IMG/VR virus record: IMGVR_UViG_3300009105_000020
Location: 1 to 29,517 of that record
Length of the DNA stretch: 29,517 nucleotides
Source: a virus
Direction: 5' to 3' (one strand)
A program made the translations under genes and the position numbers. The notes beneath the pieces are model-generated. The model was not told the DNA's origin, did not search any database, and saw nothing but the letters and a program-made list of their open reading frames with translations. Positions 10,006-24,688 of the stretch are shown one piece after another. Position 1 is the stretch's first letter. Every line of letters starts with the position of its first letter.

Positions 10006-10029
10006 GGTAACTATATACTTGCGTGACCC
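10006..10029 (+). repeat. Left terminal inverted repeat
   Basis: Begins GGTAACTATATAC and ends TGACCC. It matches the reverse complement of 12651-12674 at 13 outer and 6 inner bases, with mismatches only in the 5-base middle. It also contains the -35 box of the element's promoter. Confidence 0.9.
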
Positions 10030-10047
10030 ACTATAATGTGGTATAAT
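10019..10047 (+). promoter_or_regulatory. Promoter of the transposase/R-M operon with overlapping inverted repeat
   Basis: TTGCGT (10019-10024), 17-base spacer, TATAAT (10042-10047). The -35 lies inside the left inverted repeat. An inverted repeat CACTAT (10029-10034) and ATAGTG (10046-10051) spans the -10, a possible operator. GGGAG at 10063 serves the transposase ATG. Confidence 0.65.
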
Positions 10048-10075
10048 AGTGATATAGAAAGTAGGGAGTAAGAAA

Positions 10076-11002
10076 ATGTTACCACAATTTGTATCACTAA
10101 CAGATATGCTAAAGAGATTTCCTGATGAACGATCCTGCGTTGATTACCTTACTGAAATACGTTGGCGAGAGGGTTCCTTTTGCCCTTACTGCGGTAGTCA
10201 GAAAGTATATCATTTCAAGGATAACAAAAATCACAAATGCGGAGTATGCCGCAAGCGGTTTAGTATTAAAGTAGGAACGATTTTTGAGGATACAAAAATA
10301 CCTCTACAGAAGTGGTTTATTGCTATCTATTTTCTTACTTGTCACAAGAAGGGAATATCATCGGTTCAACTAAGTAAAGATCTCGGTGTTACACAGAAAA
10401 CGGCTTGGTTTATCGCTCATCGTCTCCGAGAAGCTACGAAAACAAAGGCTTTCAATGCCCCTCTTAAGCACTCTGTAGAGGTTGATGAAACCTTAATCGG
10501 GGGCAAGGAAAAGAATAAGCACGTTTGTAAAAGAGTAGCTGGTACTCAAGGCCGTAGCACTAAAACCAAAACAACCGCAGTAGTAATACTTCAGCGTGGT
10601 GGTGAACTAAGAGCATTTCAGACGCTAGATACTAATAGCCACACTTTAAAAGGTTTATTGCATAATAACGTAGCATTAGGAACGAAAATATACACAGATG
10701 AGTACCGTGCCTATAAAGGCTTGGAGACATTTTATCTTCATAGCAGTGTAAATCATATTAACGGACAGTATGTAAACGGAGACGCCCATACTAATACCGC
10801 AGAGGGCTTTTTCTCTTTATTAAAACGTGGAATTATTGGCATCTATCATTTCACCAGTAAAAAGCACCTGCAAAGGTATCTAAATGAGTTCTCTTTCAGG
10901 TATAATCTAAGGAACGATGATAATGGTATGGGCTTTACATCATTACTTTGCAACTGCGGACGCAGATTAACATACAAAGGATTGATAGCCAATGAAGCAT
11001 AA
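10076..11002 (+). CDS. IS1595-family transposase
   Basis: 308 residues, the full length for the family. An N-terminal zinc ribbon has C36, C39, C55 and C58 (SFCPYCG, KCGVC). A helix-turn-helix follows at about residues 94-118 (ISSVQLSKDLGVTQKTAWFI). The DDE-type catalytic core has D137 (VEVDETLIGGK), D208 (IYTDEYRAYKG) and the H238-TNTAEGFFSLLKR block with E243. It cuts and joins the element ends with 8-bp target duplication. All key residues are present, so it may be active. ATG chosen with GGGAG 9 bases upstream. Confidence 0.95.
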   Translation: MLPQFVSLTDMLKRFPDERSCVDYLTEIRWREGSFCPYCGSQKVYHFKDNKNHKCGVCRKRFSIKVGTIFEDTKIPLQKWFIAIYFLTCHKKGISSVQLSKDLGVTQKTAWFIAHRLREATKTKAFNAPLKHSVEVDETLIGGKEKNKHVCKRVAGTQGRSTKTKTTAVVILQRGGELRAFQTLDTNSHTLKGLLHNNVALGTKIYTDEYRAYKGLETFYLHSSVNHINGQYVNGDAHTNTAEGFFSLLKRGIIGIYHFTSKKHLQRYLNEFSFRYNLRNDDNGMGFTSLLCNCGRRLTYKGLIANEA

Positions 11003-11915
11003 GCCAGCATCAGAAAAACTCTTTACTTTGCCTATGCCCTTTGAGGAAGCAGTTGAGCGTTTCTCTAGGGTTAATACAAAGGAAACAGAGGCAGAACCCA
11101 CAGAAAAAAACGGGGCTTGTCCATTTGTAAAATGGGCGGGTGGTAAAAGGGCTATTATAGGCGATCTTGTTAGATTGCTACCAACTGATTTTAAGGATTA
11201 CTACGAACCCTTTGCTGGTGGTGCGGCTCTCTTTTATGAAATCTATTCACGAATGGATAAGGCTTATATATCCGATAGTAATTTAGAACTGATAATGACC
11301 TATGCCGTAGTAAAGAACGATCCATTAGCACTTATAGCAAAACTAGAAGAATACGATAAAAAGGATAGTGACGAGTATTACTATAAGGTTCGCTCGCAGC
11401 ATAATTTACAGGATGCGATAGATATTGCTGCTCGTTTCATTTACCTGAATAAAACTTGCTATAACGGCCTTTATAGGGTAAATAAAAAGGGTGAGTTTAA
11501 CGTACCCCGTGGACGTAATAATAATCCCGATATAATTCAGCGTAAAAATATCCTGGCGAGTAGTAAGGCACTTCTAAAAGCTGATATTAAATACCTTGAG
11601 TTTGATAAAATCCAGCCGAATAAGAATGACTTTGTTTATTGCGACCCACCTTATCATCCTGCTAGTATCAACGGATTTACTAAATATACTAAGTTAGATT
11701 TCTCGGAAAAAGACCAAGAACGATTAAGAGACTTTGCTTTGAAACTTCACAAGAAGGGCGTTAAGATAATGCTATCAAACTCTGATACAGCTTTTATCCG
11801 TAGTCTCTATATTCCTCCGGTTTGGAATGTTACAATTGTAGAAGCTCCCCGAATGGTGAACTGTAAATCAGAAGGTAGGGGTTCGGTTGACGAATTAGTA
11901 ATAAGGAATTACTAG
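10992..11915 (+). CDS. D12-class DNA N6-adenine methyltransferase (transposon-borne)
   Basis: 307 residues. It carries the Dam/D12 class motifs in order: WAGGKR (48-53, SAM binding), YYEPFAGGAAL (70-80), FIYLNKTCYNGLYRVNKKGE (149-168) with NVPRG, catalytic DPPY (218-221), LSNSD, and a VDELVIRNY end. It transfers a methyl group from SAM to N6 of adenine in its target. The first 40 residues are an extension beyond the catalytic domain. The start overlaps the transposase stop by 11 bp and its stop overlaps the GTG of the endonuclease, so all are co-translated. The recognition sequence cannot be read from sequence; the Dam/DpnII branch, which methylates GATC, is one possibility. Confidence 0.92.
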   Translation: MKHKPASEKLFTLPMPFEEAVERFSRVNTKETEAEPTEKNGACPFVKWAGGKRAIIGDLVRLLPTDFKDYYEPFAGGAALFYEIYSRMDKAYISDSNLELIMTYAVVKNDPLALIAKLEEYDKKDSDEYYYKVRSQHNLQDAIDIAARFIYLNKTCYNGLYRVNKKGEFNVPRGRNNNPDIIQRKNILASSKALLKADIKYLEFDKIQPNKNDFVYCDPPYHPASINGFTKYTKLDFSEKDQERLRDFALKLHKKGVKIMLSNSDTAFIRSLYIPPVWNVTIVEAPRMVNCKSEGRGSVDELVIRNY

Positions 11916-12385
11916 TGGCAATTAAACAGGGTGGCACTCAGGCTAATTATACTGGTACTGTACTTGAAAAATATATACTTTCTCGGCTTGAAGAAAGAGG
12001 TTACACTGGGTTACACCAAAGTCGCTTTAATCCTTCAAGATATTTGAAACAGCCGATTTACAGTAGACGTTATCACATAGGCTCAAGTATTTATGGCACT
12101 CCCCAATACTGCGATTTCATCATCTATCATCCTCAAAAATGGCCTGATAATCTTGTAATAGAATCAAAATGGCAACAATCCTCAGGTTCGGTAGACGAAA
12201 AGTATCCATATCTTGTCCTGAATATTCAAATGAACTATCAGAGTCCTACCATACTAGTCCTAGATGGCGGTGGATATAAAAAAGGGGCAGAAAAGTGGAT
12301 ACGTTCTCAGGCAGGAAACGGGAATTTGCTTCAGGTATTCAATATGCAACAATTTGCTACTTGGGTAAATAAAGGTAAATTATAA
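11915..12385 (+). CDS. Type II restriction endonuclease, PD-(D/E)XK fold
   Basis: 156 residues, GTG start overlapping the methyltransferase stop (TAGTG). The catalytic pattern is visible: E18 in the first helix (NYTGTVLEKYILSRLEERGY), D67 (QYCDFIIY) and E83-S-K85 (LVIESKWQQ), then SGSVDEKYPYLV, a pattern common in nucleases paired with methyltransferases. It is expected to cut DNA at the site protected by the adjacent methyltransferase. Its small size and all residues present suggest an intact enzyme. No control (C) protein gene is seen in the element. Confidence 0.85.
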   Translation: MAIKQGGTQANYTGTVLEKYILSRLEERGYTGLHQSRFNPSRYLKQPIYSRRYHIGSSIYGTPQYCDFIIYHPQKWPDNLVIESKWQQSSGSVDEKYPYLVLNIQMNYQSPTILVLDGGGYKKGAEKWIRSQAGNGNLLQVFNMQQFATWVNKGKL

Positions 12386-12396
12386 GGAGTCCTAAA

Positions 12397-12651
12397 ATGA
12401 TTTGTACTAATGAACACCGTTACTTACCTGATCTTGAAGACCTACCTGAAAGTCAAGCAGGGGAGGGAAGGCATAGATGTGCTGGTTGTGCATATGAACA
12501 AGGCTATGATGATGCCTTTGAAGGACGGGGGCGACATTTAAAAGCTGATTTATTAGATGAGAGCCAAGCTGGAACGGGCAGGCATAAAGATGTTCAATCT
12601 GCCTATGACTTGGGTCATTCTATTGGATCACAAAGACGAGGCCGAGGTTAG
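12397..12651 (+). CDS. Small two-repeat protein of the transposon
   Basis: 84 residues, with a good AAGGAG site. It consists of two tandem copies of a unit of about 37 residues: PESQAGEGRHRCAGCAYEQG then DESQAGTGRHKDVQSAYDLG, each ending in an R-rich turn (EGRGRH, QRRGRG). The first copy has a CAGC pair; the second has lost both Cys. I do not recognise a function. Its place after the endonuclease, inside the element, suggests it belongs with the restriction-modification system (accessory, immunity or specificity aid), but nothing proves that. The stop ends on the first base of the inverted repeat. Confidence 0.7.
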   Translation: MICTNEHRYLPDLEDLPESQAGEGRHRCAGCAYEQGYDDAFEGRGRHLKADLLDESQAGTGRHKDVQSAYDLGHSIGSQRRGRG

Positions 12652-12674
12652 GGTCAAATACGTATATAGTTACC
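12651..12674 (-). repeat. Right terminal inverted repeat
   Basis: The reverse complement starts GGTAACTATATAC and ends TGACCC, matching 10006-10029. It contains the palindrome ATACGTAT. Confidence 0.9.
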
Positions 12675-12703: not shown

Positions 12704-12732
12704 TTGACAACCACTAAGTGATATGTTATTAT
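12704..12732 (+). promoter_or_regulatory. Early promoter 1 with CACTAAGTG operator-like palindrome
   Basis: TTGACA (12704-12709), 17-base spacer, TATTAT (12727-12732). The spacer holds a perfect palindrome CACTAAGTG (12712-12720). The same layout recurs at 15200, 16368 and 21056. Confidence 0.75.
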
Positions 12733-12761
12733 TATACTATAGATAAAGAGGGAGGTAGTGA

Positions 12762-12980
12762 ATGGCTAAAATGACAAGGCGGATGGTTGAGGCATCAATT
12801 AAACAAGGTTGGCAGCCCTATATATCCAGTCAATGGGTGGACTTTGTTACTCGTAGAACAGGAGCCAAAATCAAGTTTATTGACCACGAGTTTGAATATA
12901 AATGCTCACGAAAAACAGCTAGAGAACTAGTAAAGATGGCAGAGGTTTCAGTAACGCCGGATGAAGCTAGTCTATCCTAG
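12762..12980 (+). CDS. Hypothetical early protein, 72 aa
   Basis: 72 residues, the first gene after early promoter 1, with GGGAGG 7 bases before the ATG. Basic N-terminus (MAKMTRRMVEASIKQGWQPY), a central strand pair, and a C-terminal helix KTARELVKMAEV. It has no recognised domain. As the first early gene downstream of an operator-like site it could be a host-takeover or regulatory factor; this is position-based inference only. Confidence 0.65.
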   Translation: MAKMTRRMVEASIKQGWQPYISSQWVDFVTRRTGAKIKFIDHEFEYKCSRKTARELVKMAEVSVTPDEASLS

Positions 12981-13006
12981 TATTAAATATAAAGGGAGGA
13001 ACCAAT

Positions 13007-13477
13007 ATGCCAGAGAAGAAGACCAAAGGAACAGACTACAGCAACCTAGATTGGAAGCCTTACTGCAGCATCAGGAACTATCTAACCTGGAGTGAAGGCG
13101 GAGAGCTACTCTGCTGTCCGATGTATGCTGAAGGACACAAACCGGACTATAACAAAGAAGGCGGCGTAGTAGAAGAGCCCGGTGAGTGCTTCAAAGACCT
13201 CAATCAGAAAGACCGCAAACACTTCATCGAGCAGTTCTGTACCAACTGGGAAGACTCAGGTAAAAGTACAGTTCCAGCCTCAGAACAGATTATCAGATTC
13301 GGAGACCTCTTAGGCTACAATAGGCGACTCAAGAAAGCTGGATTCGATACCGCCACCAGAATCACCTTAAGCCTGGGCTTTGTGAATTGTGCCACCATCG
13401 CCAACGAGAAATACCACCAGGAAGCCATAGACTTAAGAATAGCTCAGCAAGAATGTCATCATCTAGGGCTAGACTAG
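13007..13477 (+). CDS. Hypothetical Cys-rich early protein
   Basis: 156 residues, with GGGAGG before ATG. Several Cys (YCSIRNYLTW, LLCCPMYAEGHKP, GECFKDLNQKDRKHFIEQFC) are spread over residues 20-80 and could bind a metal. The block CFKDLNQKDRKHFIEQF has a counterpart in the protein at 20176 (CYEDLTKGQKIQFKKDW), so the two may share a domain. The C-terminal half is helical. Function not recognised. Confidence 0.65.
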   Translation: MPEKKTKGTDYSNLDWKPYCSIRNYLTWSEGGELLCCPMYAEGHKPDYNKEGGVVEEPGECFKDLNQKDRKHFIEQFCTNWEDSGKSTVPASEQIIRFGDLLGYNRRLKKAGFDTATRITLSLGFVNCATIANEKYHQEAIDLRIAQQECHHLGLD

Positions 13478-13520
13478 AGCCGAGGTGAAAATAAAAGGCT
13501 AAACAAAACAGGGGGTTAAA

Positions 13521-13826
13521 ATGGATTATACAAAAGGTGAATGGGAAAAAACTGGAAACGGAGTAACTGTTTTAAACAGGGGTATTATAGCAGAATGTCC
13601 ACGCCCCCAAAACAATGGTGTATTTGAAAGATACGACAACGCCCAACTCATATCTGCTGCCCCTATAATGTATGAGGGGATAGGGTCAACCATTGAGAAA
13701 TAGACAATCTATTTAGGCGAATGGTCTGCCGTAACTGATACCTACTCCCCCGAATGGACACTTGCTATTAAGAAAATTATATCAGAACTAGAGGAAGCAA
13801 TCGCCAAAGCGGAAGGTAAAACCTAG
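13521..13826 (+). pseudogene. Phage ISAAP-type small protein split by an in-frame TAG
   Basis: The first part (13521-13703, 60 residues) has the pattern of a common phage family: YTKGEWEKTGNGVTVLN, then NAQLISAAPIMYEG. After TAG at 13701-13703 the same frame stays open for 40 codons to a second TAG at 13824-13826 (residues WTLAIKKIISELEEAIAKAE), and this matches the usual helical end of the family. So one nonsense mutation seems to have split the gene. Recoding is unlikely because many genes here end in TAG and the context TAG ACA is not a known readthrough signal. Confidence 0.65.
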
Positions 13827-13850
13827 AAGAATAAAAAAGGGGGAAAACCA

Positions 13851-14555
13851 ATGGAGAAGGAAACCACCACAGGAATAGGAACACCGGAAGAGGCAATAGA
13901 GATAAGGGAGCAGGAAACAGCAAAGATAATAATATCTCCTGAGAAAGAGCCTGTTATCCTTAAGCTCTACGAAGAGGCGCAGACTATACTGCACTGTGCC
14001 GAAGACAGGAACATCAAAGCAGACTCGGACCTCATTGTATCTACCAATGACTTAAACATCATATCAGTCTACAGGAAATCCCTGGAGGAGCATCGCAAGA
14101 GATACACCACGCCAATAAGGGAATATCTACAGAAGATAAACGATAGCTTCAAGTCTATTTCCGAGCCCCTCACACAGGCGGAACAGATTACCAAGCGGAA
14201 AGTTAGTGTATGGCTTACTGAGGTAGAACGAATCCGCAAAGAAGCCGAAGAGACTGCCCGACTCGAAAGAGAACTGGCAGAACGGAAGCTTAAAACCACC
14301 GGGGAGATTGTAGACCTTAAGGAACAGGAGCTTCCGGTAGAACCACGCAAGAGAGTTATAACTGGCACAGGCACTATCTCTAAACGAATCAACCGCAAAT
14401 GGGAGCTTGAAGACATCAATAAAGTACCCAGGGAATACCTTGTCATCAACGGACCGGCTATAACCAAACTCGTCAATGCCAAGATACCGAGCATCCCCGG
14501 TATCCACATCTGGGAAGAGACATCCATAGTAAGTAAGCCGAGAGTCGTAAAATGA
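13851..14555 (+). CDS. Coiled-coil early protein, putative recombination-associated factor
   Basis: 234 residues, with GGGGGAAA before ATG. A long helical coiled coil covers about residues 65-160 (YRKSLEEHRKRYTTPIREYL, LTEVERIRKEAEETARLERE). The C-terminal domain has RKWELEDINKVPREYLVING and PGIHIWEETSIVS, a pattern I know from phage proteins encoded near ssDNA-annealing and SSB-like genes. An OB-fold-like protein follows at 15734. A role in recombination or replication is inferred from this; no catalytic motif is seen. Confidence 0.6.
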   Translation: MEKETTTGIGTPEEAIEIREQETAKIIISPEKEPVILKLYEEAQTILHCAEDRNIKADSDLIVSTNDLNIISVYRKSLEEHRKRYTTPIREYLQKINDSFKSISEPLTQAEQITKRKVSVWLTEVERIRKEAEETARLERELAERKLKTTGEIVDLKEQELPVEPRKRVITGTGTISKRINRKWELEDINKVPREYLVINGPAITKLVNAKIPSIPGIHIWEETSIVSKPRVVK

Positions 14556-14595
14556 GTGAGAGACTACACAATGTAAGAGAAGAGGAGGTATAAAG

Positions 14596-14799
14596 ATGGC
14601 GATAATAGTAGAATCAAGGAAATTTAGCATAGAACTCTGCCGTATATTCAACGAGGACCCGGGCAAAGTAAAAGCCATCACCTTAACCGCAAATGAAGGC
14701 GACTTAAAGCGTAATAGAATGATGGTAGACATTACTAGATATGCCGACGAAGATGAGATAAAGGCAGTAAAAAAACTCATAGCCAAGGAGGATAAGTAA
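14596..14799 (+). CDS. Hypothetical protein, 67 aa
   Basis: 67 residues, with GAGGAGG before ATG and its stop directly before the YopX start. Alternating strands and one C-terminal helix (ADEDEIKAVKKLIAKED) suggest a small alpha/beta domain. Not recognised. Confidence 0.55.
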   Translation: MAIIVESRKFSIELCRIFNEDPGKVKAITLTANEGDLKRNRMMVDITRYADEDEIKAVKKLIAKEDK

Positions 14800-15180
14800 A
14801 TGAGAGAGATAAAGTTCAAGGCTTGGGAAGGACGCCGTAAAGAAATGGATTACATAAATGACCTCTATTGGTTTGAGGAAAATGGGGTTAGTGACGGTGC
14901 GGGTGATGGGCTTTATGGTAATTACAAGATTATGCAATACACAGGACTAAAAGACAAGAATTGTAAAGAGATATATGAAGGGGATATAGTTGAGTGTGTT
15001 GATATGCACGATAGCAATATAGATTATTGGATTGTTAAACCGCCAAGATATAAGGTTTACTGGAATGACGAATGGGCTTGCTTTGAAATAACTGGAATGG
15101 GTATGCCAGATGATATATCTAGATATTGGGAAGTCATCGGCAACATATACGAGAACCCAGAGTTGGTAGTGAAGGAGTAA
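14800..15180 (+). CDS. YopX family protein
   Basis: 126 residues. The start MREIKFKAWEGRRKEMDYIN and the central block MQYTGLKDKNCKEIYEGDIV followed by a strand series ending WEVIGNIYENPEL are diagnostic for the YopX family, common in phages and prophages. The molecular role of YopX proteins is not established. The gene is more A+T-rich than the neighbours, consistent with a mobile accessory gene. Confidence 0.85.
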   Translation: MREIKFKAWEGRRKEMDYINDLYWFEENGVSDGAGDGLYGNYKIMQYTGLKDKNCKEIYEGDIVECVDMHDSNIDYWIVKPPRYKVYWNDEWACFEITGMGMPDDISRYWEVIGNIYENPELVVKE

Positions 15181-15199
15181 GGAGTAATGAAGATAGCAC

Positions 15200-15228
15200 T
15201 TGAATTCTACTTAGTAATATGCTATTAT
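15200..15228 (+). promoter_or_regulatory. Early promoter 2 with TACTTAGTA palindrome
   Basis: TTGAAT (15200-15205), 17-base spacer, TATTAT (15223-15228). The spacer has TACTTAGTA (15208-15216) followed by ATATGC, closely matching the spacer at 12710-12726. Confidence 0.65.
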
Positions 15229-15244
15229 TAGCAGGAGTAAATTA

Positions 15245-15448
15245 ATGAGAACCAGAGAAGTAATATCTAAAGTGAAGAATTACAAAGACCAATTTGATTT
15301 TGATATTGCCGAAGCCTCTGGTCTTAAAACTAAAAAGGATTGCCTGGAAGCTCTCCAGGCTCACAAGCAATGGCTAGAAGATGCAGGCAATGATGCTTTA
15401 AGGGATATAGATAGCTTTATTGAAGAACTAGGCATTGAATATGAATAG
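15245..15448 (+). CDS. Hypothetical early protein, 67 aa
   Basis: 67 residues, first gene after early promoter 2, with AGGAG at 10 bases before ATG. Acidic and helical throughout (CLEALQAHKQWLEDAG, LRDIDSFIEELG). No recognised domain. Confidence 0.6.
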   Translation: MRTREVISKVKNYKDQFDFDIAEASGLKTKKDCLEALQAHKQWLEDAGNDALRDIDSFIEELGIEYE

Positions 15449-15461
15449 GAGGAATTACCAG

Positions 15462-15614
15462 ATGTTAAATATAATCAAAAGACTTTTCGGCAAACCAGAA
15501 GAACCTAAGGTATCAGTCCTTTTAACTGTAAGTCCCCGGACACTACGGAGAACTAAGGTCAGGCTTAACGAACTGAGGACTGTAGCCTTTAAGAAAGCAG
15601 GGTTTATAAAGTAA
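15462..15614 (+). CDS. Small basic protein, 50 aa
   Basis: 50 residues, with AGGAGGAAT before ATG. Strongly basic (MLNIIKRLFGKPEEPKVSV, RTLRRTKVRLNELRT). The stop codon is at the 5' base of a 9-bp inverted repeat (15614-15649). It may bind nucleic acid; family not recognised. Confidence 0.55.
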   Translation: MLNIIKRLFGKPEEPKVSVLLTVSPRTLRRTKVRLNELRTVAFKKAGFIK

Positions 15615-15649
15615 TAGGCTAGAGAGCCGGGAGAAGCTCACTAGCCTAT
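15614..15649 (+). other. Nested inverted repeat (RNA hairpin or operator)
   Basis: ATAGGCTAG (15614-15622) pairs with CTAGCCTAT (15641-15649), and inside it GAGC (15624-15627) pairs with GCTC (15636-15639) around an 8-nt loop. No T-run follows. It could be a regulatory RNA structure or a protein-binding site before the OB-fold-like gene. Confidence 0.55.
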
Positions 15650-15733
15650 AGTCAAGAGATAGGGAAAACCAATACACTCTAATTCTCCAAGAAATTAAAC
15701 AGATTGTCAAGAACATCTAAGGGAGGAAAATCA

Positions 15734-16363
15734 ATGGCACAGAATATCAAGGTAGAAAGCATAGCCACTAAACCAGGCGGAAGTGAGAAAAAGAAATGGG
15801 TACTAACCACCATCACGGATGATAAGGGAGCTAAGTTCTCAGGCTTCGATGCCGGGCTCGCCAAGTTAAGCCCCGGAGCAGTAATAGAGGCGGAAGTAGA
15901 GATTGACGGACAGTACCATAATATCAAGAAGTTTAAGGTTATAGAACAGGGTACTCCGGTCCAGGCATCCGGCGCAGCAAACGGATCTGAAAGCCCGGAG
16001 AAGACCGCCAGTATAGAGGCGCAGTCCGCCGTAAGTAATGTTATGAAAAGCTACACCAGCATCTATATCGGTGGCGGAGAGCCACCGGCACGGCTTATAA
16101 AGCTATGGGAAAAGGCTCTTGACTGGTGTGATTCCAGGATAAGCGTTAAAACCCATCCGCCTAAGGCTGCCAGGCAGGAATCTACAGTCCAGGCTAACAG
16201 CAAGCTACACTTCTCCAACGCCGGTGAATTCCTGACCGCAGTCCAGTCCAGCCTCGGCAAGAACCTCAGCGATGTATTGCTAATTCTTGGGCTTAGTAAC
16301 ATATCCGAAATAAAAGACTTCGATAAAGCATTCGAAGACCTTAAAAAGAAAACAGGTAAATAA
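15734..16363 (+). CDS. OB-fold-like single-strand DNA-binding candidate
   Basis: 209 residues from the ATG at 15734, which has GGGAGGAAAA 8 bases upstream; a longer TTG start at 15704 lacks this. The first 70 residues look like an OB-fold: IKVESIATKPGG, KKWVLTTITDDKGAKFSGFD, GAVIEAEVEIDGQYHNIKKF. The middle is a Ser/Ala-rich linker, and the end has two helical segments (FLTAVQSSLGKNLSDVLLIL, FDKAFEDLKKKTGK). A role in binding DNA during replication or recombination is inferred from fold and position next to the DnaD-like gene. Confidence 0.55.
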   Translation: MAQNIKVESIATKPGGSEKKKWVLTTITDDKGAKFSGFDAGLAKLSPGAVIEAEVEIDGQYHNIKKFKVIEQGTPVQASGAANGSESPEKTASIEAQSAVSNVMKSYTSIYIGGGEPPARLIKLWEKALDWCDSRISVKTHPPKAARQESTVQANSKLHFSNAGEFLTAVQSSLGKNLSDVLLILGLSNISEIKDFDKAFEDLKKKTGK

Positions 16364-16367
16364 CCTA

Positions 16368-16396
16368 TTGACAACCACTTAGCATAATGTTAATCT
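16368..16396 (+). promoter_or_regulatory. Early promoter 3, upstream of the ribbon-helix-helix gene
   Basis: TTGACA (16368-16373), 17-base spacer, TAATCT (16391-16396). The spacer starts ACCACTTAGCATAATGT and holds the imperfect palindrome CACTTAGCA (16376-16384). The next gene encodes a candidate regulator. Confidence 0.7.
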
Positions 16397-16417
16397 AATC
16401 AAAGAGAGGTAGGGAGA

Positions 16418-16594
16418 ATGGTTACTGACACAAAGACCCCGAATAAGAATAAGAACATCCCCGGCAAACAGGCTGTCGGCTGGAGACTGCCGACAGGCAA
16501 TCTTAACAAGGCTAAAACTGAGGCTGACCGCCTGGGTATGACTATCACCGAATTTATCAATTTCTTAATAGTTTCGTATTTCGCCAGTAAATAA
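16418..16594 (+). CDS. Ribbon-helix-helix transcription regulator, 58 aa
   Basis: 58 residues, ATG after GGTAGGGAG. After a basic, disordered N-terminus (TDTKTPNKNKNIPGKQ) comes a strand VGWRLP, a helix LNKAKTEADRLG, the turn MTI and a helix TEFINFLIVSYFASK. This is the layout of Arc/MetJ/CopG-type ribbon-helix-helix proteins, which bind as dimers to short palindromes. Its own promoter has a CACTTAGCA site in the spacer, and related sites lie in three more promoters, so it is the best candidate to repress them and itself. That link is inferred. Confidence 0.65.
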   Translation: MVTDTKTPNKNKNIPGKQAVGWRLPTGNLNKAKTEADRLGMTITEFINFLIVSYFASK

Positions 16595-16612
16595 ATACAA
16601 GGGAGGAAACTA

Positions 16613-16912
16613 ATGCCAGAAGTGAGGGTAAACTTACTCAACATCAGCCATCTAACCACTTCTACCAAGCTGGTAATCGACAAAGAGGGCAACGCCGAAC
16701 AGGTAACTAAGTTCTCGTTTGAATGCGTAGCTCCGCCATCAGAGGTAGCCCGGCTACTCTACTTTCAGAAGCGTAGACAGGATTTAGATGTAGTAATCAA
16801 GTCGCCTCAGGGAGAACTCGACCTCCGGATGATGCCAGTCAATATAAAGACCGGAGAGATAATAGAATCGGCCTCAGGATGTAATCTAAAGAAGGGGGGC
16901 AAGAAGCCTTGA
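16613..16912 (+). CDS. Hypothetical early protein, 99 aa
   Basis: 99 residues, with GGGAGGAAA before ATG. Beta-rich: VRVNLLNISHLTTSTKLVID, QVTKFSFECVAPPSEVARLL, LDVVIKSPQGELDLRMMP. The helix VARLLYFQKRRQ is the only clear helix. It overlaps the DnaD-like gene by 4 bases, so it is probably part of the replication unit. Function not recognised. Confidence 0.65.
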   Translation: MPEVRVNLLNISHLTTSTKLVIDKEGNAEQVTKFSFECVAPPSEVARLLYFQKRRQDLDVVIKSPQGELDLRMMPVNIKTGEIIESASGCNLKKGGKKP

Positions 16913-17673
16913 GTAACAACAAGGAAATGCTAAGAGCATTACTGGGTCAAAGGGTGGTGGCTTATCACCCTGTGCTTTCTAAAGTAATGGGGAGAGCCAG
17001 TTACGGTATCTGGCTCAGCCAGATTCTTTACTGGGATAACATAAAAGCCGGGGGCTGGTTCTACAAATCAGCCAGGGACATCATCGGGGAGACCGGCATC
17101 ACCGAAAGGGAAGCTAAGACAGCAAAGGTCGAGGCTGTAAAACTCGGAATAGTTGATGTAGAGGTAAAAGGACTGCCACGAGTAACCCATTACCTTGTCA
17201 ATTACGATGTTTTATCCACCCTCATTGAGAGGTCACTAACTTTACGAGAGGAAGTGACCAACAAGTTGGACACCGTTGTCCAACTAGGTGATACAACGCC
17301 GTCCAACAGTTCAGTACAATCCCCCTCGCAAAACCGACCCCATATTACACACAAGATTACTACAAAGAATAATGATGATATAGATATATATAAACTATAT
17401 GAATCTAACATAGGGCTACTAACCCCTTTGATAGAAGAAGCCCTGAAGAACCTTGAAGACGAATACGATCCTGTTATGATTAAAGATGCTTTAGAGATTG
17501 CCTGTGAAAGAGGGGCGAAAAACCTACGCTATATCCAGGTAATCTTATCTAACAGTAAATCACAAGGCTATGTATCTAAGTTCAGGGACGGCAAGGAAGT
17601 AAACTCCAAGAGGCTCGGAGAAGACCCTGAAAAATACATCAAGGGCAAATACGGACATATGGTACAGAGATGA
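16909..17673 (+). CDS. DnaD-like replication initiator
   Basis: 254 residues. The N-terminal part (about 1-105) has a winged-helix pattern: RASYGIWLSQILYWDN, GGWFYKSARDIIGETGITER, LGIVDVEVKGLPRVTHYLVN, as in phage replication initiators. A polar linker (about 105-165) separates it from a helical C-terminal domain, LLTPLIEEALKNLEDEY to YIQVILSNSKSQG, typical of the DnaD/DnaB_2 family. Such proteins open the origin and help load the host helicase. The linker DNA holds inverted repeats and an AT-rich tract (17231-17411), an origin-like layout. Confidence 0.8.
   Translation: MSNNKEMLRALLGQRVVAYHPVLSKVMGRASYGIWLSQILYWDNIKAGGWFYKSARDIIGETGITEREAKTAKVEAVKLGIVDVEVKGLPRVTHYLVNYDVLSTLIERSLTLREEVTNKLDTVVQLGDTTPSNSSVQSPSQNRPHITHKITTKNNDDIDIYKLYESNIGLLTPLIEEALKNLEDEYDPVMIKDALEIACERGAKNLRYIQVILSNSKSQGYVSKFRDGKEVNSKRLGEDPEKYIKGKYGHMVQR
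17231..17411 (+). other. Candidate replication origin inside the initiator gene
   Basis: Repeats: GGTCACT (17231-17237) with AGTGACC (17253-17259); GTTGGAC (17265-17271) with GTCCAAC (17278-17284); a further GTCCAAC at 17301-17307 and a near copy GACCAAC at 17256-17262. An AT-rich tract follows at about 17341-17411. Iterons followed by an AT-rich region in the linker of the initiator gene is the design of the lambda origin inside gene O. Confidence 0.6.
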
Positions 17674-17987
17674 CTAAAACAGTAGACTATAATTCCCAGC
17701 AGAGCCACGAGGGATTCAGGGTACAGATATGCCAGCTGGCTAAACTTCTCGGCTGGCGAGTCTACTGGACCTGGAAGAGCTTTCACAGCCCTAAAGGATT
17801 CCCGGACCTGGTACTCGTCAAACATCCCCGGCTTATATTCGCTGAACTCAAGGTTAAAAAGGATAAGCTCCGCTCGGATCAGAAGCTCTGGCTGGAGGAA
17901 CTCGAAAAATGCCCTGGGAACGAAACTTACCTCTGGAGACCGGAGAACTTCGAAAATATAAAAGATACGCTGGAGGGTAACTTATGA
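17670..17987 (+). CDS. VRR-NUC domain nuclease
   Basis: 105 residues, overlapping the initiator by 4 bases. The PD-(D/E)XK-type pattern is visible: E14 (SHEGFRVQICQLAKLLGW), KGFPD46LVLV, and AE59LK61VKKDKLRSDQ, followed by the WLEELEKCPGNETYLW end found in VRR-NUC proteins. These are structure-specific nucleases, with Holliday junction resolution proposed for single-domain phage forms. All catalytic residues are present. Confidence 0.85.
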   Translation: MTKTVDYNSQQSHEGFRVQICQLAKLLGWRVYWTWKSFHSPKGFPDLVLVKHPRLIFAELKVKKDKLRSDQKLWLEELEKCPGNETYLWRPENFENIKDTLEGNL

Positions 17988-18217
17988 GCAACGACCTGTA
18001 TACCAAATCAAGAACATTCACGGATAAAGGCTGGTTTTTACTGGATATAGTAGAAGACTACAGGAATAAAATATATCATATAATCTTAATGTCACCATCG
18101 GGGATAATGTATAGGCTCAATTACAGTAGACTCGAATCAAATAACTATAGCTTCTATTACAGGCTATCATCAGTAATCCAGATAAAGAAATGGGAGGCTC
18201 AGATAAATGAAACCTAA
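17984..18217 (+). CDS. Hypothetical protein, 77 aa
   Basis: 77 residues, with ATGA overlap with the nuclease gene. Tyr-rich and beta-rich (YRNKIYHIILMSPSGIMYRL, NNYSFYYRLSSVIQ). No domain recognised. Confidence 0.6.
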   Translation: MSNDLYTKSRTFTDKGWFLLDIVEDYRNKIYHIILMSPSGIMYRLNYSRLESNNYSFYYRLSSVIQIKKWEAQINET

Positions 18218-18335
18218 TATCAGCATTAGCTCTAAGAGCCACCAGAAAGTCTCAGGCAATAAACTCGTAACGCTAAAGGCTATCTCCGCATCGGCAACTA
18301 TCAATAAACCTAAGGTCAGGAGGAATAAAAGATAA
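18207..18335 (+). CDS. Small basic protein, 42 aa
   Basis: 42 residues, with GGGAGG 11 bases upstream and an 11-base overlap with the gene before it. Ser/Lys-rich (MKPNISISSKSHQKVSGNKL to PKVRRNKR), probably disordered. The ribosome binding site and tight fit between neighbours support it. Function unknown. Confidence 0.45.
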   Translation: MKPNISISSKSHQKVSGNKLVTLKAISASATINKPKVRRNKR

Positions 18336-18476
18336 ATGTTCATAATAAAAACCGTAGTAGCAACCCTAACTCTGCCTTTTATGGTTCTCTGGGCGGTAAT
18401 CTGTCTCGGTACAAGCTTATTCGCCTGGGCTCTAAGCGATGAAGAAAAAACGGAGGTAACAAATGACACAACTTAA
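18336..18476 (+). CDS. Small membrane protein, 46 aa
   Basis: 46 residues, starting directly after the previous stop, with AGGAGG upstream. One long hydrophobic segment from residue 6 to 33 (VVATLTLPFMVLWAVICLGT), then an acidic tail DEEKTEVTNDTT. Overlaps the next gene by 14 bases. Could be a membrane peptide in host takeover or lysis; no family recognised. Confidence 0.5.
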   Translation: MFIIKTVVATLTLPFMVLWAVICLGTSLFAWALSDEEKTEVTNDTT

Positions 18477-18771
18477 ATGCGCAGTAGACGGATGCCTGGG
18501 TACAGCGATCCCCGGCAGAAGCCCTCACGGAAAATGCCTCCAGCACGAAAAGAAACACGATAATACTATCTGCCCGGTAGACGGCTGCGAAAACAAACTC
18601 AATCCGGAGACTGATAAAGCCGGGCTCTGTCAGGACTGCCAGATATTCTTAAGAAGAATGTACTGGATGCTTAACAGGGTAAAGATACAGGAGTCCGGCG
18701 GTAAGAAACCACAGAATAAGGTTATAACCCCCGGTGAATTCTATAGAGAAACAGGGAGGAATATAAAATGA
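18463..18771 (+). CDS. Double zinc-finger-like protein
   Basis: 102 residues, with CGGAGG upstream. Two similar Cys/His units: KCAVDGC...GKCLQH and ICPVDGC...GLCQDC, each with CxxxxC and a second pair. The C-terminus is basic (YWMLNRVKIQESGGKKPQNK). Probably binds zinc and nucleic acid. It overlaps the ASCH gene by 4 bases. Exact role unknown. Confidence 0.65.
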   Translation: MTQLKCAVDGCLGTAIPGRSPHGKCLQHEKKHDNTICPVDGCENKLNPETDKAGLCQDCQIFLRRMYWMLNRVKIQESGGKKPQNKVITPGEFYRETGRNIK

Positions 18772-19196
18772 AAGCACTATCTATTAAACAGCCCTGGGCT
18801 TACCTGATAGCTAAAGGCTACAAGGACATCGAGAACCGAACTAGAGCCACTAACTTTAGAGGTCGCATCTACATCCACGCCGGGGCTAAGTTCGATAATG
18901 AATCCCTTGAGTGGCTTGTAAAGAACCGGGATTTGATACCAGAAGAGACCGCCTGGCGTATAGCCTGGCTTATTATGATATGGAAGTACGGAGCTATCAT
19001 CGGAGAGGTAGATATAGTAGATTGCGTCCGTAACCATATATCCCCCTGGTTCACCGGTCCGTACGGCTATGTGCTGGAGAATCCTATATTCTATGAAGAT
19101 GGAATACATCCGTATAAAGGTCGCCTGGGCTTTTTCGAGGTAAAGTTCACTAAAACGAAGCCCTCAGGCACGAATACAGGCGATAAACCAGAGTAG
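18768..19196 (+). CDS. ASCH domain protein
   Basis: 142 residues. MKALSIKQPWAYLIAKGYKD, IENRTRATNFRGRIYIHAG and GAIIGEVDIVDCVRN, then GRLGFFEVKF, are hallmarks of the ASCH domain, a PUA-like fold that binds RNA or modified nucleotides and nucleosides. Phage ASCH proteins are frequent, with little biochemistry. Start overlaps the upstream stop (ATGA). Confidence 0.85.
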   Translation: MKALSIKQPWAYLIAKGYKDIENRTRATNFRGRIYIHAGAKFDNESLEWLVKNRDLIPEETAWRIAWLIMIWKYGAIIGEVDIVDCVRNHISPWFTGPYGYVLENPIFYEDGIHPYKGRLGFFEVKFTKTKPSGTNTGDKPE

Positions 19197-19234
19197 CTAA
19201 TCCTTTACTACTAAAAAGAAAGGTGGTATAAACA

Positions 19235-19591
19235 ATGCCAGGGAAACACGGAGAGAAGCGACCTTATAATATGGAGAATAGAATAGCCAGTATCAAGGCA
19301 GACCCAGTTACCAAGCAGCGGATATTAAAGAATGTAGATATTATAGAAGCTGGATTAGAAACCCTCCCGGCACCAAAGCTTAACAAGGTCTATGAGTTAC
19401 TACAGAAACAGGATGCCCGGAGCTTCGATGCCGGAAAGGAAACCGGCACTCGCAGAGCCATACAGAAATTCATAAGAGAGGTCGAAGTCAGAATGGCTCA
19501 CTCAAAGGGCTATCCTAACCGCAACGAATGGGCAGATAAATCTAAAGTACCAGCCTGGTGGATAGGCGTTCTACAGGAAATGCTGTATTGA
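19235..19591 (+). CDS. Hypothetical protein, 118 aa
   Basis: 118 residues, with AAAGGTGG before ATG. Helical, with LPAPKLNKVYELLQKQDA, RRAIQKFIREVEVRMAH and a Trp-rich end VPAWWIGVLQEMLY. Located directly before the NlpC/P60-like gene. Not recognised. Confidence 0.6.
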   Translation: MPGKHGEKRPYNMENRIASIKADPVTKQRILKNVDIIEAGLETLPAPKLNKVYELLQKQDARSFDAGKETGTRRAIQKFIREVEVRMAHSKGYPNRNEWADKSKVPAWWIGVLQEMLY

Positions 19592-19592
19592 T

Positions 19593-20195
19593 ATGAAGCA
19601 CTATCAGGCAGGCGACATCGTAGGCGTAAAGAGTACCGGCATCACCGGCAAGCTCAATACCGCCATCTTCACACCGCATACTAAGCTATTCCACTTCGCC
19701 ATCATCTACACCCACATCGCCAGGGAAGACGACTATATCATATTACATTCTACGGATAAGGGCATCGGTGTAGGTAGATTATCCTGGTATAAAGATTACA
19801 GGGTATTCAGGCTTACAAAGAATATAGACATCCAGCTATGGGGAAGAATCGCCTGTGCTAACCTCACCAAGCTCGGAAAGGCTAAGTACGATTATCTTAT
19901 ATTCGTGAAGCTACTCTTCGGATGCCTTAGAGCCTGGCTTGCTCAGTTATTAAAAGATGGCAGGTTCAGGGCTATCAAACCTAAAGAACTCCACTATGCC
20001 AGGGATAGACGCTTTACCTGTACCGAAGCCGTGAACGAAGCCTGGCGGAGCATCGGATTCCCGATAATACCTAAAGGCGTAGTACCTTTACCGGCTGGAA
20101 TTATCCAGGCACTAATAGATAAGAAACTCAAAGAAGTCACCGCTTCACCGGCGGTAACGCCCAGGCTTATTAAAAATGCCAGACGAAAACTCTAA
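19593..20195 (+). CDS. Permuted NlpC/P60-like (papain fold) protein, endolysin candidate
   Basis: 200 residues. The order of motifs is that of circularly permuted NlpC/P60 proteins (YiiX/DUF830 type): QAGDIVGVKSTGITGKLNT, then H34 in KLFHFAIIYTH, then C143 in DRRFTCTEAVNEAW. A Cys/His pair in this order would form an amidase or peptidase active site. No signal peptide is seen. No other lysis enzyme is found, so this could be the endolysin although it sits 9.7 kb from the holin-like genes; cleavage of another substrate is possible. Confidence 0.65.
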   Translation: MKHYQAGDIVGVKSTGITGKLNTAIFTPHTKLFHFAIIYTHIAREDDYIILHSTDKGIGVGRLSWYKDYRVFRLTKNIDIQLWGRIACANLTKLGKAKYDYLIFVKLLFGCLRAWLAQLLKDGRFRAIKPKELHYARDRRFTCTEAVNEAWRSIGFPIIPKGVVPLPAGIIQALIDKKLKEVTASPAVTPRLIKNARRKL

Positions 20196-20391
20196 ATACG
20201 GAGCCAGGGAATGGACAGAAAGCTATAAAAGGGATAATGGATGTATCTACTCAGAGGGCAAACCCTGTCTGACAGCCTGCCCCTTTATTACCTGCTATGA
20301 AGATTTAACTAAAGGGCAGAAGATACAATTCAAGAAGGACTGGAAATATGACAAAGCTAAAAGGTGGCGATACCCCGAAAAAGAAGATTAA
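20176..20391 (+). CDS. Small Cys-rich protein, 71 aa
   Basis: 71 residues, overlapping the genes on both sides (20 and 44 bases). Cys at CIYSEGKPCLTACPFITCYE suggest metal binding, followed by DLTKGQKIQFKKDW, a motif also seen in the protein at 13007. The heavy overlaps lower confidence, but the Cys pattern argues for a real protein. Confidence 0.5.
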   Translation: MPDENSKYGAREWTESYKRDNGCIYSEGKPCLTACPFITCYEDLTKGQKIQFKKDWKYDKAKRWRYPEKED

Positions 20392-21049
20392 GGGACAAAA
20401 GCCGAATGACGCCGAGGCTCTTAAAAAGAAGGTTGAGAAGAGAAAGCTAAGAGAATCACGCACCAAACAGAAGGCGGATATCTACTTCGCTATGTATTAT
20501 AAACTCGGTCCGGAGAGAAGCCTATTGAAGCTAAGAGAATCTTTGTCTATGCTTGGACTGAAAAGGGCTTTGAATACCTTTAAGAACTATTCCCATAAAT
20601 ACGACTGGCAGAAACGAGTAACAGAACTGGATGTAAAGCTCAAAGAGAAGCACGAAAGCGAGAGGATATTTCAGATAGAGCATATGAACCGGCAACAAGC
20701 TGTCCTGGGCAAGAATATGCGTAACCTATCCTCTGTAGGACTTCAAGTGCTGATAGACCTATTCAAAAAAACCGACTATATAGACTTGCCAGTAAGCGAC
20801 ATAGTGGCTCTGGCAAGGGAAGGAACTAAGATAGAACGCCTGGCGATGGGAGAGGCTACAGACCGCATCGAGCAGTACTCGTTTATCTACAATGTAATGG
20901 CGTTAGGTATCATCGATATATTCAGGGATTCCCTGGCTACGGCAAGAGTTCCTAAGCCTATGAGAGACTCGCTTACCAGGGTATTCTTTAAGGGAGTAGA
21001 TGCTTACAGGCGAGAGAAGATGCTACAGATTGAGACTAAAAAAGACTGA
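20348..21049 (+). CDS. Putative terminase small subunit
   Basis: 233 residues. A basic N-terminus is followed by a helix-turn-helix-like region with ALNTFKNYSHKYDWQKRVTE, the kind of SxKYxWxxR motif seen in phage small terminases and terminase-associated DNA-binding proteins. The C-terminal two thirds is all helical (LQVLIDLFKKTDYIDLPVSD, IFRDSLATARVPKPMRDS). The large subunit is 2.2 kb downstream rather than adjacent. The start overlaps the gene before it. Confidence 0.6.
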   Translation: MTKLKGGDTPKKKIKGQKPNDAEALKKKVEKRKLRESRTKQKADIYFAMYYKLGPERSLLKLRESLSMLGLKRALNTFKNYSHKYDWQKRVTELDVKLKEKHESERIFQIEHMNRQQAVLGKNMRNLSSVGLQVLIDLFKKTDYIDLPVSDIVALAREGTKIERLAMGEATDRIEQYSFIYNVMALGIIDIFRDSLATARVPKPMRDSLTRVFFKGVDAYRREKMLQIETKKD

Positions 21050-21055
21050 TATAAC

Positions 21056-21085
21056 TTGACAACCGCTTAGTGTTTCTATTATAAT
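21056..21085 (+). promoter_or_regulatory. Early/middle promoter 4 with CGCTTAGTG site
   Basis: TTGACA (21056-21061), 18-base spacer, TATAAT (21080-21085). The spacer starts ACCGCTTAGTG, matching the other three promoters at the operator-like box (21064-21072). Confidence 0.75.
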
Positions 21086-21115
21086 AGTTATAACGATTAT
21101 AGAAGGGCAACCAAT

Positions 21116-21370
21116 ATGCCAAAGAAACATAAAATACCAGCTAACCACCAGCACGATTACCAGCTTGTAGTAGAAGCAAAGACAGGCGGAGAACCTAAGT
21201 ACCTATGTAATGCCGGTTGCTACTCCAAGAATCCCTTTATGACTCACGCCTGTAGCTGCCGGTCCGCCAGGCAAAGCCCGGACTTCGTACCAATATATAA
21301 AGTGGGAGGATATGATGAAAGTGAACTTCAGCATATTAGAGAAGGATTGCTTCGGAGAGATAGTAGTTAA
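21116..21370 (+). CDS. Small Cys/His-rich protein, 84 aa
   Basis: 84 residues, first gene after promoter 4, with GAAGGGC before ATG. CNAGCYSKNPFMTHACSC with upstream NHQHDYQ suggests a zinc site. The end overlaps the next gene by 59 bases. Function not recognised. Confidence 0.6.
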   Translation: MPKKHKIPANHQHDYQLVVEAKTGGEPKYLCNAGCYSKNPFMTHACSCRSARQSPDFVPIYKVGGYDESELQHIREGLLRRDSS

Positions 21371-21689
21371 ACACGCCCCCGGTATGATAAAGACCCAGGC
21401 GGAACAGATACTAACGATCCTCTCCAGGACTGCCGTACCGCCTTATAACAAGGTAACGGACTTTGACAAGGAACTCACTTACCAGTACTGGAAGCAGATA
21501 GACGCTATGCCCTGTAAAATCAGCCACGAAGAATTCCGCCTATGGTTCAGGGTAGCAGCAACTTACCCGGAGCTAATCCGCCGGGCTCGTCAATGGCTCG
21601 TAGAGCATAACTACCTGATACCGACTAAGAAAGTAGCCGAGCTATCTCAAAGCTCAAGTAGTAAATGGAGAGGGGGAATTAAAGGATGA
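21312..21689 (+). CDS. Hypothetical helical protein, 125 aa
   Basis: 125 residues; ATG at 21312 with an alternative at 21315, both after GTGGGAGG. A helix series (QAEQILTILSRTAV, FRLWFRVAATYPELIRRARQ) dominates. The 59-base overlap with the gene before is long, but both have good sites. Not recognised. Confidence 0.55.
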   Translation: MMKVNFSILEKDCFGEIVVKHAPGMIKTQAEQILTILSRTAVPPYNKVTDFDKELTYQYWKQIDAMPCKISHEEFRLWFRVAATYPELIRRARQWLVEHNYLIPTKKVAELSQSSSSKWRGGIKG

Positions 21690-21814
21690 GCAATAAACAA
21701 GGTAAGATAAAAGCGGAAGATTGGAATAGAAAGGTAGCAAATAATCTAGTAAAACAAGATGAACAAAAGACTTGGGTTTCGTGGGTGAACCCTATAAAGA
21801 TAATGATGTTCTAG
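21686..21814 (+). CDS. Short ORF, 42 aa, possibly the 5' part of a frameshifted gene
   Basis: ATG at 21686 with AAAGG upstream, ATGA overlap with the gene before; begins MSNKQGKIKAEDWNRKVANN. It ends in WVNPIKIMMF, while the ORF at 21772 in another frame runs on for 80 residues from a TTG with no ribosome binding site. The two may once have been one gene. Confidence 0.4.
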   Translation: MSNKQGKIKAEDWNRKVANNLVKQDEQKTWVSWVNPIKIMMF

Positions 21815-22014
21815 AAGAAGAACTTTGTAAAGCCCAGCACGATAAATCCTACCCTGCAGGTGTTAAAGAAGTGATAGATAGGTTGAAATCGGAACTGTTC
21901 CCGTTTTGTGAAGTGAGTGATAAAGCTGAAAACCACAAAACCGTATTAACATTAAAAGATTATAGGTTATTAGTAAGAAGAATTAAACAAGAACTAGAGA
22001 AGGGGGATAAGTAA
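21772..22014 (+). CDS. Hypothetical protein, 80 aa, start uncertain
   Basis: Protein-like residues (VLEEELCKAQHDKSY, VKEVIDRLKSELFPFCEV, DYRLLVRRIKQELEKGDK), but the only in-frame starts are TTG 21772 and GTG 21781, with no Shine-Dalgarno. Either it is translated by coupling from the ORF at 21686 or a frameshift separated it from its start. Confidence 0.45.
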   Translation: MGFVGEPYKDNDVLEEELCKAQHDKSYPAGVKEVIDRLKSELFPFCEVSDKAENHKTVLTLKDYRLLVRRIKQELEKGDK

Positions 22015-22016
22015 AG

Positions 22017-22190
22017 ATGGCTAAAAAGTTTAAGACAATGGAGGAATTTGAGAAGTTTTGCGATACAGCTATGCTCTGTGTCTGTGGTAGGTTAATGACA
22101 GGGCTACATATGTCGGGCTGTACTAAATTGAGAAAGGCGAGATTAGAATTACAGGAACGTTTAAAGAAAGATATAACCCATAAGGAGTAA
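22017..22190 (+). CDS. Small Cys-rich protein, 57 aa
   Basis: 57 residues, 2 bases after the previous stop, with AGGGGG upstream. A possible zinc site C21-x-C23, H31, C35 (CVCGRLMTGLHMSGC) is followed by a basic helix KLRKARLELQERLKKD. Not recognised. Confidence 0.55.
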   Translation: MAKKFKTMEEFEKFCDTAMLCVCGRLMTGLHMSGCTKLRKARLELQERLKKDITHKE

Positions 22191-22196
22191 TGAGAA

Positions 22197-22427
22197 ATGA
22201 CTGAAATAGAACACGTAGAGACGGGAATTATGATGCCAGAGAAATGCTTGGTTTGTGGGGAAAGTTGGTCTGGTGGGCACACTTACCCACCCCAAAATAT
22301 GACCGAGGGCTTAAGGGTATTTTACTCTTGCGGTGCTTCAATGAGTGTGAAGATATTAAACCACGGAGTTTATTCAATCCTATTTAAGAATTGCGAGTAT
22401 GACTTAAAGGCGGTAAGAAATGACTAA
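22197..22427 (+). CDS. Small Cys-rich protein, 76 aa
   Basis: 76 residues, with AAGGAG before ATG. KCLVCGESW and FYSCGASM, with GGHTYPP between, could bind zinc. Overlaps the next gene by 8 bases. One of several such genes between the terminase genes; function unknown. Confidence 0.55.
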   Translation: MTEIEHVETGIMMPEKCLVCGESWSGGHTYPPQNMTEGLRVFYSCGASMSVKILNHGVYSILFKNCEYDLKAVRND

Positions 22428-22728
22428 AGATACTGAACATATATTGCCGATAGAACACGCTGTAGGTTGTAGCACTAAACTAGGTGGTCAAAATCTCTGT
22501 AATTGTGGTGCTACGGCAACAAGAAAACTATGTGAAGCCATACTCAAACGAGACTATATATCAAGAGAAGCTCACGGGGAAGAGGTATATTTGCTAGAGA
22601 GGGATTTGATAGAGCGGGAGTATAACATTAAGGCGCTGGAAGAATGTATCGGGAAAGACTACATATCCAAGCAGAGCCTAGAATATAAACTGGCAGAAAT
22701 TCGCCAGGGAAGTAAAGGAACTGCTTGA
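22420..22728 (+). CDS. Cys-containing coiled-coil protein, apparently frameshifted at the end
   Basis: 102 residues. N-terminal VGCSTKLGGQNLCNCGATAT may bind zinc, and a helix region with two DYIS units (KRDYISREAHGEE, GKDYISKQSLEYK) follows. From about 22690 another frame continues as FAREVKELLESLGCDYYLKN to a TAA at 22790-22792, with no start of its own, and overlaps the next ATG by 14 bases like a normal gene end. So the native gene may be about 20 residues longer. Confidence 0.55.
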   Translation: MTKDTEHILPIEHAVGCSTKLGGQNLCNCGATATRKLCEAILKRDYISREAHGEEVYLLERDLIEREYNIKALEECIGKDYISKQSLEYKLAEIRQGSKGTA

Positions 22729-22778
22729 ATCTTTAGGATGCGATTATTACCTTAAGAATGACTTGAAGAGATACTTAT

Positions 22779-22928
22779 ATGAAACAAGCTAAAAACAATA
22801 CATCAATCGCCGTCAGTAAAGGCACAGCCACCAGGCTATCAAAGCTTGGTGGCAAAGGCGATACTTACGAGGATATAATCACACGCTTGTTAGACAAGCT
22901 AAACGGTAAAGGCAAGAGAAAGGGATAG
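22779..22928 (+). CDS. Second ribbon-helix-helix-like small protein, 49 aa
   Basis: 49 residues. After a polar start comes TSIAVSKGTATRLSKLGGKG then DTYEDIITRLLDKL, the layout of short ribbon-helix-helix proteins of the VapB/antitoxin-like type: a strand, a helix and a DT-Y-E-D-I-I-x-x-L-L helix. It may regulate transcription or be an antitoxin remnant; no toxin gene is next to it. Confidence 0.5.
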   Translation: MKQAKNNTSIAVSKGTATRLSKLGGKGDTYEDIITRLLDKLNGKGKRKG

Positions 22929-22952
22929 CTCCCGAGTGGAGCATAAGGGAAA

Positions 22953-23213
22953 TTGAAAATAATAACAGGTGTAATTAAAGTGATATTGGGCTATTCGATA
23001 ACTCTGCCGAATGACAAAGTAAAGGCTACTCTCTATACCGAATACCACGCTTGCGATGAGTGCGGTAAAGAGTACAGGCTTTGCTATAAGTCTAACGATA
23101 AGGATAATAGGCTGCTGAGGAAGATAGCCGACAGGCTAGGCTCTCAGGGTAAAGACCTATGTTTTGCCTGCAGATATGGCATCACAGAAGAGCAGGCGGT
23201 ATTACCAATTTAA
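22953..23213 (+). CDS. Zinc-ribbon protein, 86 aa
   Basis: 86 residues from a TTG with AAGGGA at 8 bases. A four-Cys site is seen, CDEC (about residue 34) and CFAC (about 70). It lies 16 bases before the large terminase and may assist packaging, though this is inferred from position only. Confidence 0.55.
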   Translation: MKIITGVIKVILGYSITLPNDKVKATLYTEYHACDECGKEYRLCYKSNDKDNRLLRKIADRLGSQGKDLCFACRYGITEEQAVLPI

Positions 23214-23228
23214 TGGCGGTATAAAATT

Positions 23229-24656: not shown

Positions 24657-24659
24657 AGC

Positions 24660-24688
24660 TTGACAAGGCGAGAAGTTGGCATTATAGT
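24660..24688 (+). promoter_or_regulatory. Promoter of the portal/head operon
   Basis: TTGACA (24660-24665), 17-base spacer, TATAGT (24683-24688), directly after the terminase stop. It lacks the CACTWAGTG-type site, so it is probably controlled differently from the four early promoters. Confidence 0.7.

Follow-up and report, generated by a model that had tools for sequence, protein, structure and literature searches.

Gene layout and the boxed promoters

The window analyzed here is the whole of IMG/VR record IMGVR_UViG_3300009105_000020, a stretch of 29,517 nt. The ends of this record cut through the major capsid gene: its frame runs from 29358-29517 into 1-686 and stays open across the junction, without a stop, and 78-686 match a major head protein family in a profile search. 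Because the capsid reading frame continues across the record ends, the 29.5-kb record is very probably a complete, circularly permuted genome, and statements on what the genome lacks are therefore firmer than usual. Mu-type head genes (Mu portal, MuF-like end, protease) are accompanied by a separate tape-measure tail module (23229-29517 and 78-9848), and neither a Mu transposase nor an integrase was recognized beside them.

Upstream of the early genes, an IS1595-family transposon with its transposase sits inside the phage genome, with one end 30 bp 5' of the -35 hexamer of promoter P1 (Table 1). The element has 24-nt terminal inverted repeats (83% complementary), an exact 8-bp target duplication, CTTATTTT, and a G+C content of 39% versus 45-46%. 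Its cargo consists of a D12 adenine methyltransferase, a PD-(D/E)XK nuclease and one small ORF, the first two of which likely form a restriction-modification pair. The matches of the transposase and the methyltransferase are too distant to point to a host.

The genes that follow are arranged in four operons; the genes that open operons 1, 2 and 4 matched no family in profile searches. Each operon lies behind a promoter-like site in an intergenic gap directly before a gene. An earlier note on this DNA had described these four promoters and a common box, YRCTWAGYR, between the -35 and the -10; all were confirmed in the sequence, on the + strand and with spacers of 17-18 bp. The genome contains exactly four such boxed promoters, ahead of the early and replication operons and of the terL operon. 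To call all four early operons is fair, apart from the presence of terL in operon 4. The boxed sites are the only strong promoter-like sites in the early gaps, whereas the strong late promoter at 24660 has no box.

Table 1. Positions and composition of the promoters, operons and individual genes discussed in the text
Feature	Position	Strand	Composition and context
IS1595-family transposon	10006-12674		Transposase and cargo
P1	12704-12732	+	-35 TTGACA (12704-12709), box CACTAAGTG (12712-12720), -10 (12727-12732); TTGACA-AC-CACTAAGTG-ATATGT-TATTAT; extended -10 TGT-TATTAT; spacer 17 bp; before gene 12762
Operon 1	12762-15180	+	Small early genes, exonuclease PHROG match (13851), YopX protein
P2	15200-15228	+	-35 TTGAAT (weakest of the four), box TACTTAGTA (15208-15216), -10 (15223-15228); TTGAAT-TC-TACTTAGTA-ATATGC-TATTAT; extended -10 TGC-TATTAT; spacer 17 bp; before gene 15245
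Operon 2	15245-16363	+	Behind P2; genes without assignment
P3	16368-16396	+	-35 TTGACA, box CACTTAGCA (16376-16384), -10 (16391-16396); TTGACA-AC-CACTTAGCA-TAATGT-TAATCT; extended -10 TGT-TAATCT; spacer 17 bp; before gene 16418
Operon 3	16418-21049	+	58-aa protein first; replication initiation/DnaD-like protein, VRR nuclease, small terminase
58-aa protein	16418-16594	+	Candidate repressor of probable ribbon-helix-helix type, encoded directly behind box 3
Replication initiation/DnaD-like helicase loader	16909-17673	+	Profile match; operon 3
P4	21056-21085	+	-35 TTGACA, box CGCTTAGTG (21064-21072); TTGACA-AC-CGCTTAGTG-TTTCTAT-TATAAT; both hexamers perfect; spacer 18 bp; before operon 4
Operon 4	21116-24656	+	Small genes, 49-aa DUF7557 protein, terL (large terminase) at the end
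49-aa protein	22779-22928	+	DUF7557 match (27.1 bits, cut-off 25); operon 4; second candidate small DNA-binding protein
Unboxed strong promoter	24660-24688	+	TTGACA-N17-TATAGT; before the portal (late) operon; Mu-type portal

In all four sites the box starts exactly two bases 3' of the -35 hexamer and lies at about -27 to -19; the close spacing reported earlier stands, but the range of two to three bases does not. The claim that the box is palindromic fares unevenly. The outer pairs match perfectly (4/4) in sites 1 and 2, the latter through changes on both arms, but only partially in site 4 (3/4) and in site 3 (2/4), where box 3, at the promoter of the 58-aa gene, is the least symmetric. The symmetry is real but modest, and palindromicity is by itself weak evidence, a 9-bp palindrome inside a conserved 17-bp stretch being not very unlikely. 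The site may also be asymmetric and take in the -35.

Two further features were observed around the boxes. A CACTT half-site lies 11 bp 5' of the box in sites 1 and 2, with AACTT in site 4 and CTATT in site 3. Over the -10 of P4, positions 21077-21088 (CTATTATAATAG) form a perfect 12-bp palindrome, which may be an AT-rich chance occurrence or a second site.

The hexamers carry 9-12 of the 12 sigma-70 consensus bases among the sites listed, and sites 1-3 have an extended -10 (TGN, with TG one base before the hexamer). The four sites are thus predicted to be near-consensus sigma-70-type promoters that do not need an activator. P2 is doubtful, because its predicted start, taken 6-8 nt past the -10 at about 15235, would fall within the Shine-Dalgarno sequence AGGAG of gene 15245. 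It may be weak, may use another -10 or may be no promoter at all.

Non-randomness of the box and its occurrence elsewhere

The 9-mer YRCTWAGYR by itself means nothing, since its count in the window (5) is at the chance level (4.1 expected). When it is joined to the -35 as TTGANWN plus box, the motif search of the window proposed in the earlier note returns exact matches only at the four sites. At three mismatches the same pattern yields 27 matches versus 22 by chance, a count that reveals no tail of weaker copies. The window has 51 promoter-like sites when up to 3 mismatches are allowed, and the box is present in 4 of them; 100 shuffles yielded 4,736 such sites, of which 7 had it. Leave-one-out matrices built from the -35 and the box place the four sites at ranks 1, 3, 1 and 1 of about 59,000 positions; with the box alone they still rank 8-14 of about 59,000, and the signal therefore does not come from the -35 only. 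Random spacers were also simulated, 14 at a time so that each intergenic gap had one, and 16 of 200,000 simulations produced a clique of four as alike as the observed one. When the spacer search was loosened to take in 453 very weak promoter-like sites, it gave families of similar size by chance and had no power. The set of four boxed promoters is real and non-random.

The genome is without close known relatives. No near DNA match was found among the phages searched, and no early-region relative turned up in the collections searched: in viral contigs nothing related to the 58-aa protein, TerS, the 13851 protein or the replication protein was found, and the genomes searched gave no relative of the last of these either. 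The terminase does have relatives, with identities of up to 48%, and these viral loci share no early genes with the window save one YopX-like match in a single locus (L076). The box is absent from the eight terminase relatives that were searched whole; a search for de novo spacer families in such relatives, based on loose promoters, had no power, including in its SPβ positive control. Elsewhere, TTGACAACCRCTWAGTG was found in two unrelated viral contigs, at one site within a gene, and was taken as chance. Boxed consensus promoters matched three times in IMG/VR, in unrelated phages, and we do not count these as evidence because a control palindrome gave nine matches. A literature search with the exact box returned no regulatory paper among the matches listed.

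The candidate regulator and competing readings

The gene directly behind P3 had been proposed to encode a ribbon-helix-helix protein, an identity that the structural comparisons favor. The model of the 58-aa protein, a weak one built from one sequence with a mean pLDDT of 72, places helices at residues 26-39 and 43-57 after an extended stretch, with no strand assigned in the monomer. The leading PDB matches found by Foldseek are chains of Arc (first), MazE6, CopG and VapB (E about 1, probability up to 0.97), and a second structural comparison gave Z up to 4.7 and an rmsd of 2.2-2.5 over 39 residues, with CopG, Arc, PutA and AmrZ; the Arc structures 1bdv, 1myk and 1par are among the matches. 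At the sequence level, the protein scores 16.2 bits against Pfam CopG_antitoxin (cut-off 28) and 13.5 against NCBIfam BrnA (cut-off 60), below the cut-off in both cases, and it has no sequence match in the PDB.

The ribbon-helix-helix-like model and the position of the gene, first behind box 3, make autoregulation of gene 16418 plausible. That the 58-aa protein is the regulator of the box is a tentative assignment. In a hand alignment to Arc, its predicted DNA-facing strand carries A19, G21 and R23 and thus few polar, base-contacting side chains. A ribbon-helix-helix tetramer normally spans two half-sites, and its two dimers would have little room on a lone 9-bp box. We note, post hoc, that the CACTT-like half-site could offer a place for a second dimer; it overlaps the -35.

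Of the proteins scanned in profile searches, none was recognized as an integrase or a CI-like repressor, in agreement with the earlier statement that this phage shows no CI. Likewise, no strong helix-turn-helix match was found among the early-region proteins scanned, and no repressor of tyrosine-recombinase fold was matched among the proteins scanned, several small ORFs being without assignment.

In sum, we propose that the four promoters constitute one regulon with operators in the spacers and the 58-aa protein as an autoregulating repressor, a reading to which, as a whole, we give a probability of roughly 0.45. Judged by its near-consensus sequence, each boxed promoter would fire unaided on phage entry. 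The box would be the site of a phage-made regulator that, when bound, blocks RNA polymerase, as its position suggests; we read the spacer site as polymerase-excluding because the near-consensus hexamers, the 17-18-bp spacing and the TG extensions predict no need of an activator. The regulator would most likely be the 58-aa protein, made from the boxed P3, which on building up would silence the remaining early and middle operons as well as its own. The structural genes would stay on through the promoter at 24660, which has no box, with a timing that we infer.

The most general part of this proposal, that the box is a repressor-type operator, is probably correct. It could hold with another regulator, be it the 49-aa DUF7557 protein, the product of a small operon-first gene or a borrowed host regulator; we regard this as rather unlikely, though it is the best placed of the alternatives. 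The 49-aa protein is indeed a second small candidate, with a weak match to the N-terminus of the BfmA mobilization family; its model gave no ribbon-helix-helix match by Foldseek. That operons 1, 2 and 4 each open with a gene of no assigned family also leaves room for another regulator, as does the lack of a sequence tie between the 58-aa protein and the box. However, the clearest DNA-binding fold belongs to the 58-aa protein, encoded in the classical autoregulatory place, and the scan for helix-turn-helix proteins yielded no strong competitor in the early region.

It is improbable that the shared stretch instead raises promoter activity, either as an activator site or as a sequence preference of the host polymerase or a phage-modified one. 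Such a function would fit the conservation that spans the -35, the box and, in three sites, the extended -10, with the -35 half conserved as much as the box. However, the hexamers come close to consensus as they are, and the strong promoter at 24660 manages without a box. We favor a repressor over a MerR-type activator because the spacers (17, 17, 17 and 18 bp) are unsuited to MerR-type activation, which goes with a spacer of 19-20 bp that contains a dyad. Furthermore, no sigma contact is known at -27 to -19, which counts against a polymerase preference or an activator.

Slightly less probable still is a likeness by descent with no regulator involved, recombination having carried copies of a single ancestral promoter to the four places. 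Sites 1 and 3 do match across much of the promoter, and there are four copies only, with no weaker relatives. However, the flanks are without similarity, the variable positions lie outside the CTWAG core, and site 2, the most divergent, kept perfect symmetry. A chance resemblance chosen by eye, to which the frequency of the 9-mer alone and the families of the loose spacer search would lend themselves, is very improbable in view of the simulations, the leave-one-out ranks and the enrichment over shuffled sequences.

Likeness to known phage regulons

Shared operators at several early promoters have precedents. The phiC31 repressor recognizes conserved inverted repeats at many early promoters, and the present genome resembles it in having a shared inverted repeat at such promoters; the phiC31 repeats are longer than the box, and that repressor is large and unrelated. 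In the Cluster A mycobacteriophages, the site of L5 overlaps TTGACA, too. One repressor of this cluster, a monomeric HTH protein, serves 20-30 asymmetric stoperators of 13-14 bp, mostly outside promoters (PMC6550527, PMC9283540). The likeness lies in many similar sites, some of them within early promoters, whereas here there are four sites, all in promoters, without an excess of weaker copies, which differs from a stoperator array.

The nearest functional parallel is Bacillus phage SPbeta, whose master repressor MrpR, a protein of tyrosine-recombinase fold, binds the SPBRE element at about ten promoters and upholds the lysogenic state of this temperate phage (PMC10516654). We recovered SPBRE from seven SPbeta promoters (yonP, yonT, yonX, aimR, yopM, yopV and yorE), where it lies between TTGACA-like and TATAAT-like hexamers with TATG before the -10, most clearly at yonP and yorE. 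Similarly, one element is repeated here in the -35/-10 spacer of several promoters, at a fixed position and above chance, as expected of a multi-promoter regulon. The two elements are unrelated: SPBRE (AAATAYAAAAAATATGTA) is AT-rich, and none of the seven SPbeta target promoters contains YRCTWAGYR. The systems differ further in that neither a protein of the MrpR fold nor an integrase was recognized among the proteins scanned here.

In protein and position, the nearest parallel is Arc of phage P22 at Pant. Arc is a 53-aa ribbon-helix-helix repressor whose operator, also between -35 and -10, measures about 21 bp, has two half-sites and serves one promoter region, from which Arc represses its own operon in lytic growth. 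A small ribbon-helix-helix-like phage protein and the spacer location recur here, but the operator-like box measures 9 bp and stands at four promoters, and the two proteins are about 15-24% identical in structural alignments. Extended to its furthest, the comparison would describe a strictly lytic phage without CI or integrase in which an Arc-like 58-aa protein exerts a global, self-limiting early shut-off through the 9-bp spacer box at four promoters, while the unboxed promoter serves the late genes. Such a phage would pass from early to late expression by a minimal switch of one protein, and we consider this unlikely. If true, a complete 29.5-kb genome would contain a compact regulon made up of a single tiny protein, its four sites and a promoter for contrast. 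A ribbon-helix-helix protein would then be seen to shut off early genes across the genome, where Arc acts locally, and the system might provide a small repressor/operator part. The principle of one phage repressor acting at many spacer operators is already known, and what is new here is another example of it.
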